Source: Luteimonas chenhongjianii
Lineage (GTDB): Bacteria > Pseudomonadota > Gammaproteobacteria > Xanthomonadales > Xanthomonadaceae
Direction of reading: 5' to 3'
Assembly (NCBI RefSeq): GCF_002327105.1
Contig: NZ_CP023406.1
Span: forward strand, 1,736,001 to 1,800,000
Length of the DNA: 64,000 bases
Positions 12,301 to 19,799 of the stretch are shown one piece after another. The position numbers and the translations under genes are program-made. The notes beneath the pieces were generated by a model that was not told where the DNA came from, ran no database searches, and was given only the letters and a program-made list of their open reading frames with translations. Positions within the stretch are counted from its first letter, which is position 1. Each line of letters starts with the position of its first letter.

Positions 12301-12320
12301 ACCGCAGCGTCGTGGCGGTT

Positions 12321-12337
12321 GCAGCGCAGCGCGCTGC
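12321..12337 (+). other. Hairpin between the secreted-protein gene and the arg leader
   Basis: A 7-bp perfect stem (12321-12327 with 12331-12337, loop AGC) lies 20 bases after the stop and just before the Shine-Dalgarno of the leader peptide. No T-run follows. Confidence 0.35.
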
Positions 12338-12356
12338 GTGCGAGGATGCGCGCCTC

Positions 12357-12461
12357 ATGAACGCCCTTCGCACCGACGCCGACATCCTGACCTCCGCCCG
12401 TATGGCGTCGGGCATGACCTCGCGCGCGCGTCGACCGGAAGCCCACATCTTCCCGGGTTGA
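12357..12461 (+). CDS. Putative arginine leader peptide (34 aa)
   Basis: A short ORF starting at ATG 12357 with GAGGA ten bases upstream and ending at TGA 12459-12461. Five of its 34 codons are Arg; the last three are clustered in SRARR at residues 22-26 (codons CGC, GCG, CGT, CGA), eight codons before the stop. In-frame ATGs also exist at 12402 and 12414. It precedes an intrinsic terminator with the alternative pairing expected of ribosome-mediated attenuation, in front of the arginine operon. Arg codons are common in GC-rich DNA, so the argument rests mainly on the RNA architecture and location. Confidence 0.55.
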   Translation: MNALRTDADILTSARMASGMTSRARRPEAHIFPG

Positions 12462-12521
12462 TCGAACGCGCGTCGCTTGTGCGAGCTGTTCTGCAGAAAC
12501 CCGGCCGATGCCGGGTTTTTT
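12435..12521 (+). promoter_or_regulatory. Putative transcription attenuator of the arginine operon
   Basis: Four RNA segments can pair in mutually exclusive ways. Segment 1 (12435-12441), directly after the Arg codons, pairs with segment 2 (12449-12456) with one bulge. Segment 2' (12453-12459) pairs perfectly over 7 bp with segment 3 (12498-12504). Segment 3 extended (12497-12505) pairs over 9 bp with segment 4 (12510-12518), followed by T's to 12521, forming an intrinsic terminator. A ribosome stalled at the Arg codons covers segment 1 and frees 2 for 3 (read-through); one reaching the stop codon covers segment 2 and lets 3:4 terminate. The terminator itself is certain; the switch is inferred. 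Confidence 0.6.
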
Positions 12522-12588
12522 CGTTTTCCGGAACTCCGATCCGCCGCGTCAACCGATCCTTCCTTCCATCGCCTCCACGAGATTCCCG

Positions 12589-13599
12589 ATGACCGCGATC
12601 CGACACTTCCTCAACACGCAGGACTGGTCCCGACCCGACTTGGACGCCCTGCTGGCCGACGCTGCGCGCTTCAAGCGCGAGAAGCTCGGTGACGCGCTCA
12701 AGGGACGTTCGATCGCGCTGGTGTTCTTCAATCCGTCGATGCGCACGCGCACCAGCTTCGAACTCGGCGCCTTCCAGCTCGGCGGCCACGCCATCGTGCT
12801 GCAGCCGGGCAAGGACGCGTGGCCGATCGAGTTCGACCTGGGCACGGTGATGGACGGCGACACCGAGGAGCACATCGCCGAGGTCGCGCGCGTGCTCGGC
12901 CGCTACGTCGACATGATCGGCGTGCGCGCGTTCCCGAAGTTCGTCGACTGGTCGGTCGATCGCGAGGACCGCGTGCTCAGGGCCTTCGCGCATTACTCGC
13001 CGGTGCCGGTGATCAACATGGAGACCATCACCCATCCCTGCCAGGAGCTGGCGCACGCGCTGGCCCTGCAGGAGCATTTCGGCACGTCCGATCTGCGCGG
13101 CAAGAAGTACGTGCTGACCTGGACCTATCACCCCAAGCCGCTCAACACCGCGGTCGCCAACTCGGCGCTGACCATCGCCACGCGCATGGGCATGGACGTG
13201 ACCCTGCTGTGCCCCACGCCCGATTACGTGCTCGACGAGCGTTACATGGACTGGGCTGAAGCCAATGTGGCCGAGAGCGGGGGCTCGCTGCAGGTCAGCC
13301 ACGACATCGAAAGCGCCTATGCGGGTGCGGATGTGGTGTATGCCAAGAGCTGGGGCGCGCTGCCGTTCTTCGGCAACTGGGCGCCGGAGAAGCCGATCCG
13401 CGACCGGTACAGGCACTTCATCGTCGATGAGGCCAAGATGGCGCTGACCAACAACGGCGTGTTCTCGCACTGCCTGCCGCTGCGCCGCAACGTCAAGGCG
13501 ACCGATGCGGTCATGGATTCACCGCAATGCATCGCCATCAACGAAGCCGAGAACCGCCTGCACGTGCAGAAGGCGGTCATGGCGACCCTGATGCGCTGA
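12589..13599 (+). CDS. argF': N-acetylornithine carbamoyltransferase (AOTCase)
   Basis: This transcarbamylase makes N-acetylcitrulline from N-acetylornithine and carbamoyl phosphate, the variant arginine route described in Xanthomonas, and does not use free ornithine. The 336-residue protein has the carbamoyl-phosphate loop SMRTRTSF (50-57), HPCQELAHAL (149-158) and CLPLRRNVKATD. AOTCase-specific features are visible: the QPGKDAWPIEF loop (72-82), Glu145 in INMETITHP and Lys303 (the carboxylated lysine, K302 without Met). The start is ATG 12589. It is the first structural gene of the arg operon, 68 bases after the attenuator terminator. Confidence 0.94.
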   Translation: MTAIRHFLNTQDWSRPDLDALLADAARFKREKLGDALKGRSIALVFFNPSMRTRTSFELGAFQLGGHAIVLQPGKDAWPIEFDLGTVMDGDTEEHIAEVARVLGRYVDMIGVRAFPKFVDWSVDREDRVLRAFAHYSPVPVINMETITHPCQELAHALALQEHFGTSDLRGKKYVLTWTYHPKPLNTAVANSALTIATRMGMDVTLLCPTPDYVLDERYMDWAEANVAESGGSLQVSHDIESAYAGADVVYAKSWGALPFFGNWAPEKPIRDRYRHFIVDEAKMALTNNGVFSHCLPLRRNVKATDAVMDSPQCIAINEAENRLHVQKAVMATLMR

Positions 13600-13650: not shown

Positions 13651-14856
13651 ATGACCAGCGTCAATACCTCCCGCGACATCGTCCTCGCCTTCTCCGGTGG
13701 CCTCGACACCAGCTTCTGCGTTCCCTATCTCAAGGAGCAGGGCTGGACGGTGCATACCGTCTTCGCCGACACCGGCGGCGTGGATGCCGAAGAGCGCGCC
13801 TTCATCGAGCAGCGCGCGGCTGAACTGGGCGTCGCCAGCCATGTCACCGTCGACGGCGGTCCCGCGATCTGGGAAGGCTTCGTCAAGCCCTTCGTCTGGG
13901 CCGGCGAGGCCTACCAGGGCCAGTACCCGCTGCTGGTCTCGGACCGCTACCTGATCGTCGATGCCGCGCTCGCGCGCGCCGCCGAGCTGGGCACCAATGC
14001 GATCGCGCACGGCTGCACGGGCATGGGCAACGACCAGGTGCGGTTCGATCTGGCGGTCAAGGCGCAGGGCGACTACCGCATCGTGGCGCCGATCCGCGAG
14101 ATCCAGAAGGAACATACGCAGACGCGCGCCTACGAGCAGGCCTATCTGGAGGAGCGCGGCTTCGGCGTGCGCGCCAAGCAGCAGGCCTACACCATCAACG
14201 AGAACCTGCTGGGCCTGACGATGTCGGGCGGCGAGATCGACCGTTGGGAAGCGCCGGGCGAGGGTGCCCGTGGCTGGTGCGCGCCGCGCGCCGAATGGCC
14301 GGAGGCACCGTTGCAGGTCAAGGTCCGTTTCGAGCAGGGCACTGCGGTCGCGCTCGACGGCGAAACGATGCCCGGTGCGCAGATCCTGGCCAAGCTCAAT
14401 GCACTGTTCGCGCCCTACGGCGTGGGCCGCGGCGTCTACACCGGCGACACCGTGATCGGCCTCAAGGGCCGCATCGTGTACGAGGCGCCGGGCCTGGTCT
14501 CATTGCTCGCCGCGCACCGCGCGCTCGAAGACACCGTGCTGACCAAGCAGCAGAACCGCTTCAAGCCCGAGGTCGCGCGCAAGTGGACCGAGCTGGTCTA
14601 CGAGGGCTTCTTCCACGATCCGCTCAAGGCCGATATCGAGGCGTTCCTCGCCTCCTCGCAGGCGAAAGTCACCGGTGAAGTGGTGCTGGAAACCCGCGGC
14701 GGCCGCGTCGATGCGGTGGCGGTGACCTCCCCGCACATCCTCAACGCCAAGGGCGCCACGTATGCGCAGTCGGCGGATTGGGGCGTGGAAGAAGCCGAGG
14801 GCTTCATCAAGCTGTTCGGCATGAGCTCGACGCTGTACGCGCAGGTCAACCGCTGA
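13651..14856 (+). CDS. argG: Argininosuccinate synthase
   Basis: ATP-dependent ligation of citrulline and aspartate. The 401-residue protein has the N-type ATP pyrophosphatase P-loop FSGGLDTS (~13-20), [16 protein letters not shown], and [13 protein letters not shown], which binds substrate and ATP. It is divergent from the E. coli enzyme, in keeping with the xanthomonad cluster. It follows argF' by 51 bases; 143 bases of palindromic repeat separate it from the next gene. Confidence 0.95.
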
Positions 14857-14971: not shown

Positions 14972-14999
14972 GTTTGTCGTTCCAGAACCGTCCGACGCC

Positions 15000-16115
15000 A
15001 TGACCGACCTGCTGACCCACACTCTCGACCACCTCCAACAGCTGGTGTCCTTCGATACCCGCAATCCGCCGCGTGCGATTCCGGCCGAGGGCGGGATCTT
15101 CGACTACATCCGCAGCCGCCTGCCGGGCTTCGAGGTCGAGGTGATCGACCACGGCGCCGGCGCGGTGAGCCTGTACGCGGTACGCGGCACGCCGAAGGTG
15201 CTGTTCAACGTGCACCTCGACACCGTCCCCGACTCCCCCGACTGGAGCGCCGATCCGCATGTGATGCGGCGCCTCGACGATCGCGTGGTCGGTCTGGGCG
15301 TCTGCGACATCAAAGGCGCCGCGGCGGCGCTGATCGCAGCGGTCAATGCCGGTGACGGCGATGCGGCATTGCTGTTCTCGTCCGACGAGGAAGCCAACGA
15401 CCCGCGCTGCATCGCCGCGTTCCTCGCCCGCGGGCTGGACTTCGATGCGGTGATCGTGGCCGAGCCGACGAACTGCGAGGCCGTGCTCGCGCATCGCGGC
15501 ATCAGTTCGGTGCTGATGCGCTTCGCCGGCACCGCCGGCCATGCATCAGGCAAGCAGGATCCGGCGGCCAGCGCGCTGCATCAGGCGATGCGTTGGGGTG
15601 GCCGTGCCCTGGACCATGTCGAATCGCTGGACCACGCGCGCTTCGGGGGGCTGACCGGCCTTCGCTTCAACATCGGCCGGGTCGAGGGCGGCATCAAGGG
15701 CAACGTCATCGCACCGGCCGCCGAGCTGCGGTTCGGGTTCCGGCCGCTGCCGTCGATGGATGTCGACGACCTGCTGGCGACATTCGCCGGCTTCGCCGAA
15801 CCCGAGGCCGGCCATTTCGAAGAGACCTTCCGCGGGCCGAGCCTGCCGTCGGGCGCGGCTTCCGATGGGAGTGCTGCCAATGCCGAGGAGCGGCGTCTCG
15901 CCGCGCGCGACATCGCCGATGCCTTCGATCTGCCGATCGGCAATGCGGTCGATTTCTGGACCGAGGCGTCGCTGTTCTCGGCGGGTGGCTACACCGCGTT
16001 CGTGTTCGGACCGGGCGACATCGCCCAGGCACACACGGCCGACGAGTTCGTCACCCTGGCGCAACTGCAGCGCTACGCCGACGCCGTGCACCGGATCATC
16101 AACGCACCGGCCTGA
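15000..16115 (+). CDS. argE': N-acetylcitrulline deacetylase (ArgE-like M20 metallohydrolase)
   Basis: An M20-family zinc peptidase-fold enzyme of 371 residues. Metal-site motifs are visible: [11 protein letters not shown] (first zinc His and Asp), [15 protein letters not shown] (bridging Asp), and SSDEEANDP (catalytic Glu pair). The dimerisation domain begins at [17 protein letters not shown]. Because argF' makes acetylcitrulline, the expected substrate is N-acetylcitrulline, as in Xanthomonas ArgE'. The start is ATG 15000, after the repeat region. Confidence 0.9.
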
Positions 16116-16167: not shown

Positions 16168-17493
16168 GTGAACATTCCCGCCACCCACGTCCAGACCCGC
16201 CAGACCATCGTGCGCCTGCTCTCGAGCATGGCCAGCGCGAAGGAGATCAGCCAGTACCTCAAGCGATTTTCGCAGCTCGACGCCAAGCGCTTCGCCGTGG
16301 TCAAGGTCGGGGGCGCGGTACTGCGCGACGAGCTCGACGACCTGACGTCCTCGCTGTCGTTCCTGCAGGAAGTCGGCCTCACCCCGATCGTGCTGCACGG
16401 CGCGGGCCCGCAGCTCGATGCCGAACTCGCCGCGGCCGGCATCGAGAAGCAGACCGTCGACGGCCTGCGCGTGACCACGCCCGAGGCGCTGGCCATCGTG
16501 CGCCGCGTGTTCCAGGCGGCGAACCTGCGCCTGGTCGAGGCCCTGCAGCGAAATGGCGCGCGTGCAACCTCGATCACCGGCGGTGTATTCGAGGCGACGT
16601 ATCTCGACCAGGCGACCTACGGCCTGGTCGGCGAAGTGAACGCAGTGAACCTCGCGCCCATCGAGGCCAGCCTGCAGGCCGGTTCGATCCCGGTGATCAC
16701 CAGCCTGGGCGAAACCGCGTCGGGACAGATCCTCAACATCAACGCCGACTTCGCCGCCAACGAACTCGTGCGCGAACTGCAGCCCTACAAGATCATCTTC
16801 CTCACCGGCACCGGTGGCCTGCTCGATGCCAACGGCAAGGTCATCGATTCGATCAACCTGTCCACCGAGTACGACCATCTGATCGAGCAGCCATGGCTGC
16901 ATGGCGGCATGAAGGTCAAGATCGAGCAGATCAAGGCACTGCTCGAAGGGTTGCCGATGGCGTCGTCGGTCTCGATCACGCGGCCGGCCGACCTGGCCAA
17001 GGAGCTGTTCACGCACAAGGGCTCGGGCACCCTGGTCCGCCGCGGCGAGCAGGTGCTGCGGGTGACCGAATGGTCCCGGCTGGATCTGGCGCGGTTGAAG
17101 TCGCTGATCGAATCGAGCTTCGGCCGCGAACTCGCGCCGGACTACTTCGAGCGCACGCCGCTGCTGCGCGCCTACGTCAGCGAGAACTACCGCGCCGCGG
17201 TGATCCTCACCGAAGGCGACGGGATGGTGTACCTGGACAAGTTCGCGGTGCTCGACGACGCGCAGGGCGAGGGCCTGGGGCGCGCGGTATGGAACGTGAT
17301 GCGCGAAGAGACCCCGCAGCTGTTCTGGCGGTCGCGCCACGACAACGCGGTGAACATTTTCTACTACGCCCAGTCAGACGGCTGCATCAAGCAGGAAAAG
17401 TGGAAGGTGTTCTGGTACGGGCTCGACGGCTTCGAACAGATCCAGCGCTGCGTCGCCCATTGCGCGGCGCGCGTGCCGACGCTGGTCGGTTGA
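16168..17493 (+). CDS. argB: Bifunctional N-acetylglutamate kinase / N-acetylglutamate synthase
   Basis: A 441-residue fusion that covers the first two steps of arginine synthesis. Residues ~1-290 are an amino-acid kinase domain ([48 protein letters not shown]); residues ~295-441 are a GNAT-type acetyltransferase domain ([48 protein letters not shown]). This kinase-NAT fusion is known from Xanthomonas. GTG 16168 is chosen because the homologous N terminus ([20 protein letters not shown]) begins just after it; the frame is open much further upstream. In the fusion family, arginine inhibits the enzyme. Confidence 0.92.
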
Positions 17494-17503
17494 GGGCACT
17501 GCA

Positions 17504-18454
17504 ATGACCCAGAAGAAGACCATCGGCATCGTCGGCGCGCGCGGCCATACCGGCCGGGAGCTGATCCGCCTCGTCGCCGCGCATCCGGGCCTCGAGCTCG
17601 CATTCGTGTCCTCGCGCGAGCTGGGCGGCCAGCGCGTCTCCGACCACAACGACGGGTGGCAGGGCGATCTGCGTTTCGAGAACCTCGACGTCGATGCCGT
17701 TGCGGCAAAGCGTGCCGATGCGGTGATCCTCGCGCTGCCCAATGGCAAGGCCGCGCCGTTCGTCGCCGCGATCGATGCGGCCAAGCCGGACACCGTGATT
17801 GTCGACCTGTCGGCCGATTACCGCTTCGACGCCGGCTGGTACTACGGACTGCCGGAACTCACCCGCGGCCGCTACGCCGGCCAGCGCCGGATCAGCAATC
17901 CCGGCTGCTATGCGACCGCGATGCAGCTGGCGATCGCGCCGCTGGCGAGCCGGCTGGCCGGTCCGCCGCAGTGCTTCGGGGTTTCCGGGTATTCCGGCGC
18001 CGGCACGACCCCGTCGGACAAGAACAACCTCGAGCTGCTGGCCGACAACCTGATGCCTTACGCGCTGACCGATCACGTGCACGAGCGGGAGGTGTCGAAG
18101 CAGTTGGCGCTGCCTGTCGAGTTCATGCCGCACGTCGCGCCGCATTTCCGTGGAATCACGATGACGGTGAACATGTGGCTGTCGTCACCGATGTCGCGCG
18201 ATGCGGTCAAGGCGCTGTTCGAGGCGCGATATGCCGACGAACCGCTGGTCGAGGTCATCGACGATGCGCCGTGGGTCAGCCGCATCGCCGGTCGCCACGG
18301 CGCGCAGATCGGCGCGTTCACGATGGCGCCTGGTAACGGACGCGTGGTTGTCGTGGCGACGCTCGACAATCTGCTCAAGGGCGCGGCGACGCAGGCGATG
18401 CAGAACCTCAATCTCGCGCTGGGCTTCGACGAGCTCACCTCCATCCCGCATTGA
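17504..18454 (+). CDS. argC: N-acetyl-gamma-glutamyl-phosphate reductase
   Basis: NADPH-dependent reduction of acetylglutamyl phosphate to the semialdehyde. The 316-residue protein has an N-terminal Rossmann motif [16 protein letters not shown] and the active-site cysteine in [14 protein letters not shown], followed by [14 protein letters not shown] and the His in [13 protein letters not shown]. It starts ten bases after the argB stop. The next pathway enzyme, acetylornithine aminotransferase (argD), is not in the window. Confidence 0.95.
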
Positions 18455-18503
18455 TCCTCCTCCGCAGGCGTGCGCGCCTGCGGATCCGAAAACGGAATCC
18501 GAC

Positions 18504-19799
18504 ATGAGCACTCTCCTGTGGCAGAAGCCCGGCGTCGCCGTCGACACCAAGATCCAAGCGTTCCTCGCCGGTGACGACGTCATCCTCGACCGCGAATTCT
18601 TCCTGCACGACATCGCCGCGAGCGCCGCGCATGCGCAGGGCCTGCAGCGCGTCGGCATCCTCTCGGCCGATGAACTCGCTGGCCTCGAGCGCGAACTGGC
18701 CATGCTGGCCGAGGATTTCCGCAGTGGCGCCTTCGTACTCGACGAGCGTTTCGAGGACGGGCATTCGGCCATCGAGGCGCGCCTGACCGAACGTCTCGGC
18801 GATGCCGGCCGGCGCATCCACACCGGCCGCAGCCGCAACGACCAGGTGCTGGTCGCCACGCGCCTGTGGCTGAAGGAAAAGCTGGAGCGGCTGGCGACAC
18901 TCTCGCGCGAGATCGCGAAGGTCGCGCTCGACCGCGCCGAGGCCGAGCGCGCGCTGCCGATCCCCGGCTACACCCACATCCAGCGCGCGGTGCTGTCCTC
19001 GGGCGGCATGTGGTGGTCGGGCTGGGCCGAGGCCTTCATCGACGATGCGGTACGCGCACGCGACACGCTGGCGCTGATCGACTGCAATCCGCTCGGCACC
19101 GCCGCGGGCTATGGCGTGAACCTCGCGCTCGACCGTGACCACACGACCGCCGCGCTCGGCTTCGCGCGCCTGCAGGTCTCGCCGGTGTATGCCCAGCTCT
19201 CGCGCGGCAAGTTCGAACTGGCCGCGCTCGAAGCGCTGGGCAGCGCGACACTGGACCTGCGTCGCCTGGCCTGGGACCTGTCGCTGTTCACCAGCGCCGA
19301 ATACGGTTTCGTCGCGCTGCCCGCGCAGTACACCACCGGCAGCTCGATCATGCCCAACAAGCGCAATCCCGACGTCGTCGAGCTGATGCGCGCTACGCAT
19401 GCCAGCGTCGCCGCGGCGCGCACCGAGATCGAGCAGCTGCTGTCGCTGCCGTCGGGATACCACCGCGACCTGCAGAGTTCCAAGGGCGCGATCTTCCACG
19501 GTTTCGGTCGCGGCCTGGCCGCGCTGGAACTGCTGCCGGCGCTGCTGGCGAACCTGGAATGGCGCGAGGATCGCCTGCGCGCCGCGGTCGATTCGGGCAT
19601 GTACGCCACCGATGTCGCCGTCGAGGCTGCGATTGCCGGCGTGCCGTTCCGCGAGGCCTACCAGGCCGCCGCGGCCAGCACCGATACGGCCGGGCAGGGC
19701 CGCACGCCGGAAGGCAGTCTCGCCGCGCGCACGTCACCCGGCGGCGCGGCCGACCTGCGTCTGGACACGTTGCGCGCGCGCTGGGCTGCGCTGGCATGA
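18504..19799 (+). CDS. argH: Argininosuccinate lyase
   Basis: Cleaves argininosuccinate to arginine and fumarate. The 431-residue member of the fumarase/aspartase superfamily shows [10 protein letters not shown], the YTHIQRA region with catalytic His, and the signature [12 protein letters not shown]. The C terminus is slightly short compared with the E. coli enzyme. ATG 18504 matches the family N terminus ([17 protein letters not shown]); the frame is open into argC. Its stop overlaps the next gene's start. Confidence 0.95.

Follow-up and report, generated by a model that had tools for sequence, protein, structure and literature searches.

The window analyzed here (the whole stretch of DNA, 64,000 nt, to which all coordinates refer) contains an arginine biosynthetic operon of Luteimonas chenhongjianii that begins at 12589 and has the gene order argF'-argG-argE'-acetylglutamate kinase/synthase-argC-argH. 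A bifunctional acetylglutamate kinase/synthase is known from X. campestris (PMC1865377). The leader region lies between the end of the preceding ORF (12300) and argF'. The features of leader region and operon are as follows:

12319..12324, + strand: -35 hexamer TTGCAG (spacer of 17 nt here; TTGC at 17 or 18 nt spacing in 81/81 loci)
12342..12347, + strand: -10 hexamer GAGGAT, preceded by TGC (81/81 loci)
12355, + strand: predicted transcription start, 2 nt 5' of the leader ATG (start of the RF02242 match; RACE of sRNA-Xoo5)
12357..12461, + strand: leader ORF of 34 codons with the stop codon TGA at 12459-12461 (sequence, conservation, codon periodicity)
12423..12434, + strand: control codons CGC-GCG-CGT-CGA, encoding Arg-Ala-Arg-Arg (Arg in 81/81 at each of the three places)
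12435..12456, + strand: predicted protector hairpin, 12435-12441 with 12449-12456 (sequence, fold, ribosome-position profile)
12453..12459, + strand: predicted antiterminator strand (its start is 21 nt past the C of CGA; its last base is the first of the stop codon)
12495..12520, + strand: intrinsic terminator (strand 12498-12504 shared with the antiterminator)
12589..13599, + strand: argF', N-acetylornithine carbamoyltransferase, first gene of the operon (NF003384, above cut-off)
13651..14856, + strand: argG, argininosuccinate synthase (profile search)
15000..16115, + strand: argE', acetylornithine deacetylase (start approximate; profile search of 14991-16115)
16168..17493, + strand: acetylglutamate kinase/synthase fusion (the profile names acetylglutamate kinase; start approximate)
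17504..18454, + strand: argC (profile search)
18501..19799, + strand: argH (start approximate; profile search)

From the ATG at 12357 to the TGA, the leader ORF reads MNALRTDADILTSARMASGMTSRARRPEAHIFPG. The argF' frame is also open from an ATG within the terminator hairpin, which would lengthen the N-terminus (window 12508-12588; 363 aa vs 336), and automatic annotation could put the argF' start there.

A preliminary description of this DNA had pointed out the 34-codon ORF with its SRARR run and had made the proposal depend on its conservation in relatives. The ORF is present, and a homologous leader (M[T/A]SRARR) precedes argF' in 80/80 of the named relatives examined, which are the best 80 of 574 and consist mostly of Luteimonas, Lysobacter, Xanthomonas, Stenotrophomonas and Pseudoxanthomonas records together with some MAGs. 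With the window included (n = 81) and the Met of MTSRARR numbered 0, Met 0, Ser 2, Arg 3, Ala 4, Arg 5 and Arg 6 are invariant in 81/81 leaders, as are Ala -3 and Ala -6; Thr 1 is found in 80/81 and Pro 7 in 79/81. Near-identical rows were merged, leaving 67 of the 81 for codon analysis and 75 of the 81 for the covariation alignment (A1). Among the 67 distinct sequences, diversity at the first, second and third positions of the core codons was 0.080, 0.034 and 0.306, respectively, and departures from the core were synonymous versus non-synonymous in 212/48 cases in frame, compared with 20/237 and 3/250 in the other two frames. Based on these free third positions and the synonymous bias, the leader ORF is very probably translated and its peptide under selection. 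The exact leader core occurs a single time per genome in 21/31 genomes, and the other 10, one of them of the same genus, have no exact match. Searches of Pfam and NCBIfam gave no family for the leader peptide, with 0 Pfam families at E <= 1, a weak test with a query of 34 residues.

To follow the leader across the order, we used 108 regions upstream of argF', of which two (L149 and L166, in which the contig ends near the gene) were set aside, leaving 106 usable; the families within the order are numbered f1 to f12. An Arg-rich leader followed by a terminator was found in 88/106 of these order loci, which were chosen by coordinates and not at random and some of which may come from the same genomes as the named loci. 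Overall, the device (leader and terminator) is present in 169/187 usable loci. It is present in all loci of f1 (11/11), f12 (17/17), f7 (27/27), f8 (11/11), f3 (7/7), f2 (3/3), f4 (3/3), f6 (2/2) and f10 (1/1), and the leader is present in 6/21 f9 loci, 0/1 f5 loci and 0/2 f11 loci. Of 17 genomes without an argF' match (E <= 1e-30), 13 are f8, yet the gene and the leader are present in all 11 f8 loci examined. MTSRARR is kept in 38/38 usable f1, f2, f3 and f12 loci of the order set; in f4, f6, f7, f8, f9 and f10, the peptide differs and the Arg run remains. Because leaders in the diverged families were chosen by Arg content, other amino acids and shuffled bases served as the control. At least 4 Arg per 8 codons were present in 39/53 loci with a terminator (of 66), compared with 5/53 for the next amino acid, Val, and 3.35/50 for Arg after shuffling of the upstream bases. 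The mean of the best ORF per 8 codons was 4.13 for Arg and 2.00 for Val, again the next amino acid (53 loci), and 1.58 for Arg with shuffled bases (50 loci).

These patterns bear on whether the region encodes mainly an arrest peptide, in which the nascent ..MTSRARR chain would pause the ribosome, perhaps with arginine or ornithine as a ligand, and sensing of Arg-tRNA would be secondary. The conservation of M-[T/A]-S-R-A-R-R and of Ala -3 and Ala -6 in the 81 loci at the level of residues, with third positions left free, is what such a peptide would produce, and the same is true of MTSRARR in all 38 loci of the four families that keep it. However, f4, f6, f7, f8 and f10 keep the Arg run in unrelated peptides, and the residue following Arg-Arg is not always Pro, being C, T or R in f3. 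Moreover, arrest induced by a ligand at the Arg codons would be expected to raise expression when arginine is plentiful, which is the wrong sign for a biosynthetic operon. We therefore consider it improbable that the peptide is the main sensor, and favor a sensor of Arg-tRNA, in which the conserved peptide core may hide a nascent-chain component.

The hexamer GAGGAT (12342-12347) had been taken for a good Shine-Dalgarno sequence in the preliminary description; comparison with relatives identified it instead as the -10 hexamer of a promoter. The counterparts in relatives are GAGTAT, GAGCAT, AAAGAT, CACCAT and similar hexamers, and in 81/81 loci, a -10-type hexamer (A at position 2, A/T at 5 and T at 6) lies 7-10 nt before the start codon, start codon and hexamer having been picked jointly by the same scan. 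The start codon is ATG in 76 and GTG in five of the 81 leaders, and the spacer from TTGC to the -10 hexamer is 17 nt in 75 loci and 18 nt in six. A sigma-70 consensus scan of the window returned no promoter; the promoter emerged from the comparison of relatives. For the diverged families, the chosen start is preceded by a -10-like hexamer at 5-9 nt in 31/50 leaders and at 11-13 nt in 4/50; none was found in 15/50. Because the supposed Shine-Dalgarno sequence is a -10 box, translation of the leader very probably initiates leaderless and not by a Shine-Dalgarno interaction.

In searches of the window against Rfam, no leader match was obtained at the gathering threshold, and RF02242 (Xoo5) surfaced only in a permissive search, with a match that begins at 12355 and scores 31.5 bits against a gathering score of 50 (E 8.4e-05). 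Further weak matches in the window, to rnk_pseudo, BcKCsr7, RsmY, istR and anti-hemB, were all under their respective cut-offs. The gathering score of RF02242 was exceeded in 6/8 relatives tested, with the match starting 2 nt before the leader AUG. Because the locus and the peptide core are shared, the leader in the window is, as judged from its sequence, a divergent homologue of RF02242 below the member cut-off and not a listed member. In Xanthomonas oryzae, sRNA-Xoo5 has a RACE 5' end at 2045785 and a cloned 3' end at 2045908, giving 124 nt; Northern blots showed bands of ~130 and ~100 nt in early growth, of which the short one alone was seen later (PMC3039613). RF02242 was presumably built on sRNA-Xoo5, given the name and the common length of 124 nt. 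The gene 3' of sRNA-Xoo5, PXO_00353, encodes N-acetylornithine carbamoyltransferase; the main text of that paper has 0 occurrences of arginine, ornithine, argF and leader, and one of its tables lists sequence similar to sRNA-Xoo5 as not found in Xylella (PMC3039613). Thus, the short leader transcript that the preliminary description expected had already been cloned in Xanthomonas under the name sRNA-Xoo5, and its RACE 5' end makes the ORF leaderless; this end was determined by others in Xanthomonas and, by analogy, would lie at the corresponding position in the window. The reported sizes (~130, ~100 and 124 nt) fall below the ~160 nt that a terminated leader is predicted to have; trimming or gel error may be the cause of the shortfall. 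The RF02242 model ends before the terminator.

The description of an sRNA with two Northern bands that vary with growth phase (PMC3039613), together with the listing in Rfam as an sRNA, would fit a region that makes a trans-acting small RNA and lies before argF' incidentally. Such an RNA explains neither the codon periodicity, nor the linkage to argF' in 169/187 loci, nor a strand that competes for the terminator and keeps a roughly constant spacing from the Arg codons, and loss of Hfq is reported to affect Xoo1, 2 and 3, not Xoo5 (PMC3039613). We consider this explanation very improbable; the leader RNA may, nevertheless, have a side role in trans in addition to acting as a cis-acting leader of the arginine operon.

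The RNA pairings on which such a leader would depend were proposed in the preliminary description, which read the terminator directly as 12497-12505/12510-12518 (arms AAACCCGGC and GCCGGGTTT) with a T-run to 12521; we found it independently at 12495-12520. Among the 75 distinct sequences of the family, the core of its arms is 100% paired, and 2/7 pairs covary (22 cells; 0/500 shuffles). The antiterminator (12453-12459/12498-12504) holds as a perfect pairing of CCGGGTT with AACCCGG over 7 bp, and the protector as a pairing of CCGGAAG (12435-12441) with CTTCCCGG (12449-12456) with one bulge. The 167-nt leader RNA folds with -71.9 kcal/mol (z -2.94; 1/200 shuffles as good). In the alignment A1, 85.5% of the protector cells are paired with a covariation score of 0.136 versus 0.108 for shuffled alignments. 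For the antiterminator, 91.4% of cells are paired in the 75 sequences; the covariation expected within the family is absent in a fixed register (0/7 pairs with change on both sides, 500/500 shuffles as high), because Luteimonas-type loci pair one base out of register. Between families, however, the antiterminator changes in a compensatory manner. The conservation of the alternative pairing that the preliminary description had called for is thus seen between families and not in a fixed register within the family. Specifically, the three strands change together as GCTGGGT/ACCCAGC/GCTGGGT, GCCGGGT/ACCCGGC/GCCGGGT and CAGGTT/AACCTG/CCAGGTT. The fit of the strand to the terminator arm of its own locus is 17.76 versus 16.44 after swapping between loci (sd 0.16; largest of 300 swaps 16.92), a comparison uncorrected for kinship. 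A C-A mismatch, from the combination of CCGGG with CCCAG, occurs in 10/169 loci (three f1, five f7, one f3 and one f9).

The position of the antiterminator strand relative to the Arg codons provides a second line of evidence. The footprint of a ribosome reaches ~12-13 nt ahead of the A site codon. Counted from the first base of the last Arg codon, the distance to the start of the strand is 21 nt in 97/169 loci (sd 3.49), which is just beyond the leading edge of a ribosome whose A site contains that codon. In 99 of the 169 loci, the last base of the strand is also the first of the stop codon; the distance to the stop has an sd of 6.37, and in leaders that end earlier or later, the distance from strand to Arg codons shifts less than that from strand to stop. 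In six loci (L040, L043, L046, L060, L114 and L119), the leader stop precedes the antiterminator strand, and the strand still lies 18-22 nt from the last Arg codon. Because the spacing is kept where the leader stops short, the strand appears to be selected as RNA and not as peptide. The antiterminator match was equalled by <=5/100 shuffles in only 118/169 loci, and this test was passed by 2/11 f8, 2/7 f3, 0/3 f2 and 0/1 f10 loci. In the other 51/169 loci, >5/100 shuffles pair the terminator arm as well, as would be the case if a stable terminator had a complementary segment upstream by chance and the operon were controlled otherwise. Chance does not account for the conservation of the ORF, the Arg codons, CGA and the spacing, or for the covariation of three strands between families, and no ArgR that could control the operon otherwise was found (see below). 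We regard such a coincidence as extremely improbable and retain the antiterminator as a putative functional element of the leader.

Fold calculations with a placed ribosome, an equilibrium treatment of a kinetic process, support this assignment. With everything up to the leading edge of the ribosome masked, the terminator arm was paired upstream with a mean value across 92 f1 loci of 0.68 with the ribosome at the last Arg codon, 0.40 with the ribosome at the stop and 0.43 in ribosome-free RNA. A value of 0.5 was reached in 91/92 f1 loci in the stalled state, compared with 33/92 at the stop and 39/92 ribosome-free; in those 33 loci, a ribosome that has arrived at the stop leaves the terminator arm paired with some upstream segment. 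In the other families, the value in the stalled state was at least 0.5 in f12 (17/17), f2 (3/3), f3 (7/7), f4 (3/3), f6 (2/2), f7 (26/27), f8 (7/11), f9 (5/6) and f10 (0/1). When the ribosome was moved codon by codon and pairing with the antiterminator strand alone was counted, the value in the window was 0.00 with the first Arg codon in the A site and 0.76-0.77 with the codon after it, staying at that level through position +2 past CGA; it was 0.66 at +3 and had dropped to 0.00 at +4, where it remained up to and past the stop. The earlier proposal that stalling on CGC, CGT or CGA frees the antiterminator strand is thus borne out by the calculation for CGT and CGA and not for the first Arg codon, CGC. 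Across all f1 loci, the antiterminator peaks from CGA to +2 at 0.34-0.38 and is at most 0.05 from +4; these values are lower because RNA on the 5' side remained available for competing pairings. When the ribosome stands at positions further 5', the antiterminator forms as well in f7, in f12 and in f4, f6, f8, f9 and f10 taken together, which argues that the protector, clear in the window in these calculations, is not a general feature.

In many bacteria, ArgR would be the expected regulator; the remark in the preliminary description that arg operons are usually controlled by ArgR-type repressors turns out to favor the attenuator, given that the genome of L. chenhongjianii lacks a detectable ArgR. 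A search of this genome gave no match to PF02863 (ArgR_C), and PF01316 matched with E 0.62, below the cut-off; ArgR as controller of the operon was therefore rejected. Among order genomes, PF02863 was detected in 2/61 and 8/200, all of them f11, with E. coli and B. subtilis positive as controls. Coordinates were compared in two f11 genomes: ~1.4 kb separates the ArgR match from the argF homologue, and the leader is missing from both. Of the leader-bearing relatives, the ArgR comparison took in the 88 of the order set, none of which is among the ArgR matches. Neither a leader nor ArgR was detected in 15/21 f9 loci and in the f5 locus. In two f9 loci (L184 and L189), ~50 nt before argF', a promoter-like element almost abuts a CCCAGC-type terminator with no ORF between them; perhaps these are decayed attenuators that lost their ORF.

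The identity of the Arg codons suggests what is sensed. CGC, CGT and CGA make up all core Arg codons of the 81 leaders (243/243, three per leader), and the third (12432-12434) is CGA in 81/81. In argF' at these 81 loci, by comparison, CGA makes up 19/1436 Arg codons, and 65/81 of the genes do without it. In the best windows of the diverged leaders, CGC, CGT and CGA account for 212/219 Arg codons. The reference for both sets of leaders is argF', where these three codons account for 1236/1436 (Fisher 6e-15). Among 49 tRNA matches in the L. chenhongjianii genome, the anticodons assigned by ARAGORN give three tRNA-Arg genes, TCT, CCG and ACG, with one copy each. CGU, CGC and CGA are decoded by the ACG (inosine) tRNA (PMC10454642); thus, a single tRNA, with the anticodon ACG and one gene copy, serves the core Arg codons. 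In an assay based on the Salmonella his leader, CGU and CGC were translated faster than CGA, and Arg-Arg pairs with CGA caused high de-attenuation (PMC4046918). Because CGA is slow and read by the single ACG tRNA, we infer that the run ends on the codon most apt to sense a shortage of tRNA-Arg(ACG).

Based on these findings, we are confident that 12319-12521 acts as a transcription attenuator of the ribosome-mediated kind, with the charging of tRNA-Arg(ACG) as its signal and argF'-argG-argE'-argAB-argC-argH as the operon under its control, and the trp-type geometry originally proposed gains support from conservation, pairing potential and spacing. In this model, transcription would begin ~2 nt 5' of the leader AUG, and initiation by a ribosome would take place on the leaderless end. 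With ample Arg-tRNA, the ribosome would run to the stop codon and cover 12453-12459, such that the terminator (12495-12520) could form. With scarce Arg-tRNA, the ribosome would stall on CGT or CGA (12429-12434) with its leading edge covering the protector strand 12435-12441; in this state, the pairing potential, the folds and the conserved geometry suggest that 12453-12459 would pair with 12498-12504 and that the polymerase would read into argF'. Antitermination would then be the physiological response to arginine starvation, and the attenuator would do the job that ArgR does elsewhere. That the leader is translated in the cell, responds to arginine and replaced ArgR in evolution is what we infer from the comparative data. 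We tentatively raise a more far-reaching possibility, which we think is rather unlikely to hold in full: in the families with MTSRARR, the nascent chain and the codon may act jointly, the chain priming the ribosome to pause precisely on the invariant CGA, which a single-copy tRNA reads. The resulting leaderless sensor of arginine would be hypersensitive, would have displaced ArgR throughout the order and would have come to be catalogued as an sRNA.

Attenuators of the trp/his type are recognized by a leader ORF with codons for the end product, an antiterminator over the end of this ORF, an intrinsic terminator, a protector hairpin and a biosynthetic operon downstream. The Luteimonas leader has these hallmarks in common with the trp/his-type attenuators of Proteobacteria, although the protector hairpin, clear in the window, is weaker in relatives and weak in f7 and f12. 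It differs from them in that it senses arginine in our model, very probably starts leaderless and keeps a conserved peptide core, and its control codons are limited to those of one single-copy tRNA, the last being the slow CGA. The class of mechanism is old; the amino acid is new as far as openly licensed papers show, and the probable leaderless start is unusual. These papers yielded no description of a transcription attenuator with Arg codons before an arg operon, and the main text of a survey of premature terminators (PMC2965389) mentions neither arginine nor argF. If our interpretation is correct, arginine would join the end products whose own biosynthetic operons sense them through transcription attenuation, the control of arginine synthesis would be explained in an order where ArgR is rare, and an Rfam "sRNA" family would have a function. 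The leaders would, moreover, offer a natural series for testing the best codon and spacing of a ribosomal sensor.

Several described leaders share single traits with the Luteimonas leader. One, sRNA-Xoo5/RF02242, is the same locus in relatives with argF' downstream and has been described as an sRNA (PMC3039613). In the speF leader of Salmonella, consecutive Arg codons in a short ORF, orf34, also sense arginine; however, this leader controls a polyamine gene by way of Rho, RNase G and translation, and not by an intrinsic terminator switch ahead of biosynthetic genes (PMC6386406). The SpeFL/orf34 profile PF10940 did not match the Luteimonas leader, a weak test for a query of 34 residues. Similarly, rare Arg codons in the rbfL leader of Staphylococcus aureus sense arginine limitation by ribosome pausing, but what is blocked is translation of a biofilm regulator, and transcription is not attenuated (PMC13009471). 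Cys-rich small ORFs of mycobacteria, reported in a paper on leaderless transcripts, likewise place codons for the relevant amino acid before metabolic genes; these ORFs differ from the Luteimonas leader in amino acid (cysteine) and in being mycobacterial, and attenuation is called speculative (PMC4633059). Finally, the carA leader of Pseudomonas aeruginosa combines a leader peptide and suspected attenuation with a gene of arginine/pyrimidine synthesis, with the possible attenuation, unlike that in the Luteimonas leader, tied to pyrimidines (cited in PMC4997734). The carA gene of the L. chenhongjianii genome, inspected by eye, has no comparable leader and terminator. In a protein comparison for sRNA-Xoo1, argininosuccinate synthase and N-acetylornithine carbamoyltransferase have fold values of 3.25 and 1.7, respectively (PMC3039613), possibly reflecting a second layer of control over these enzymes.
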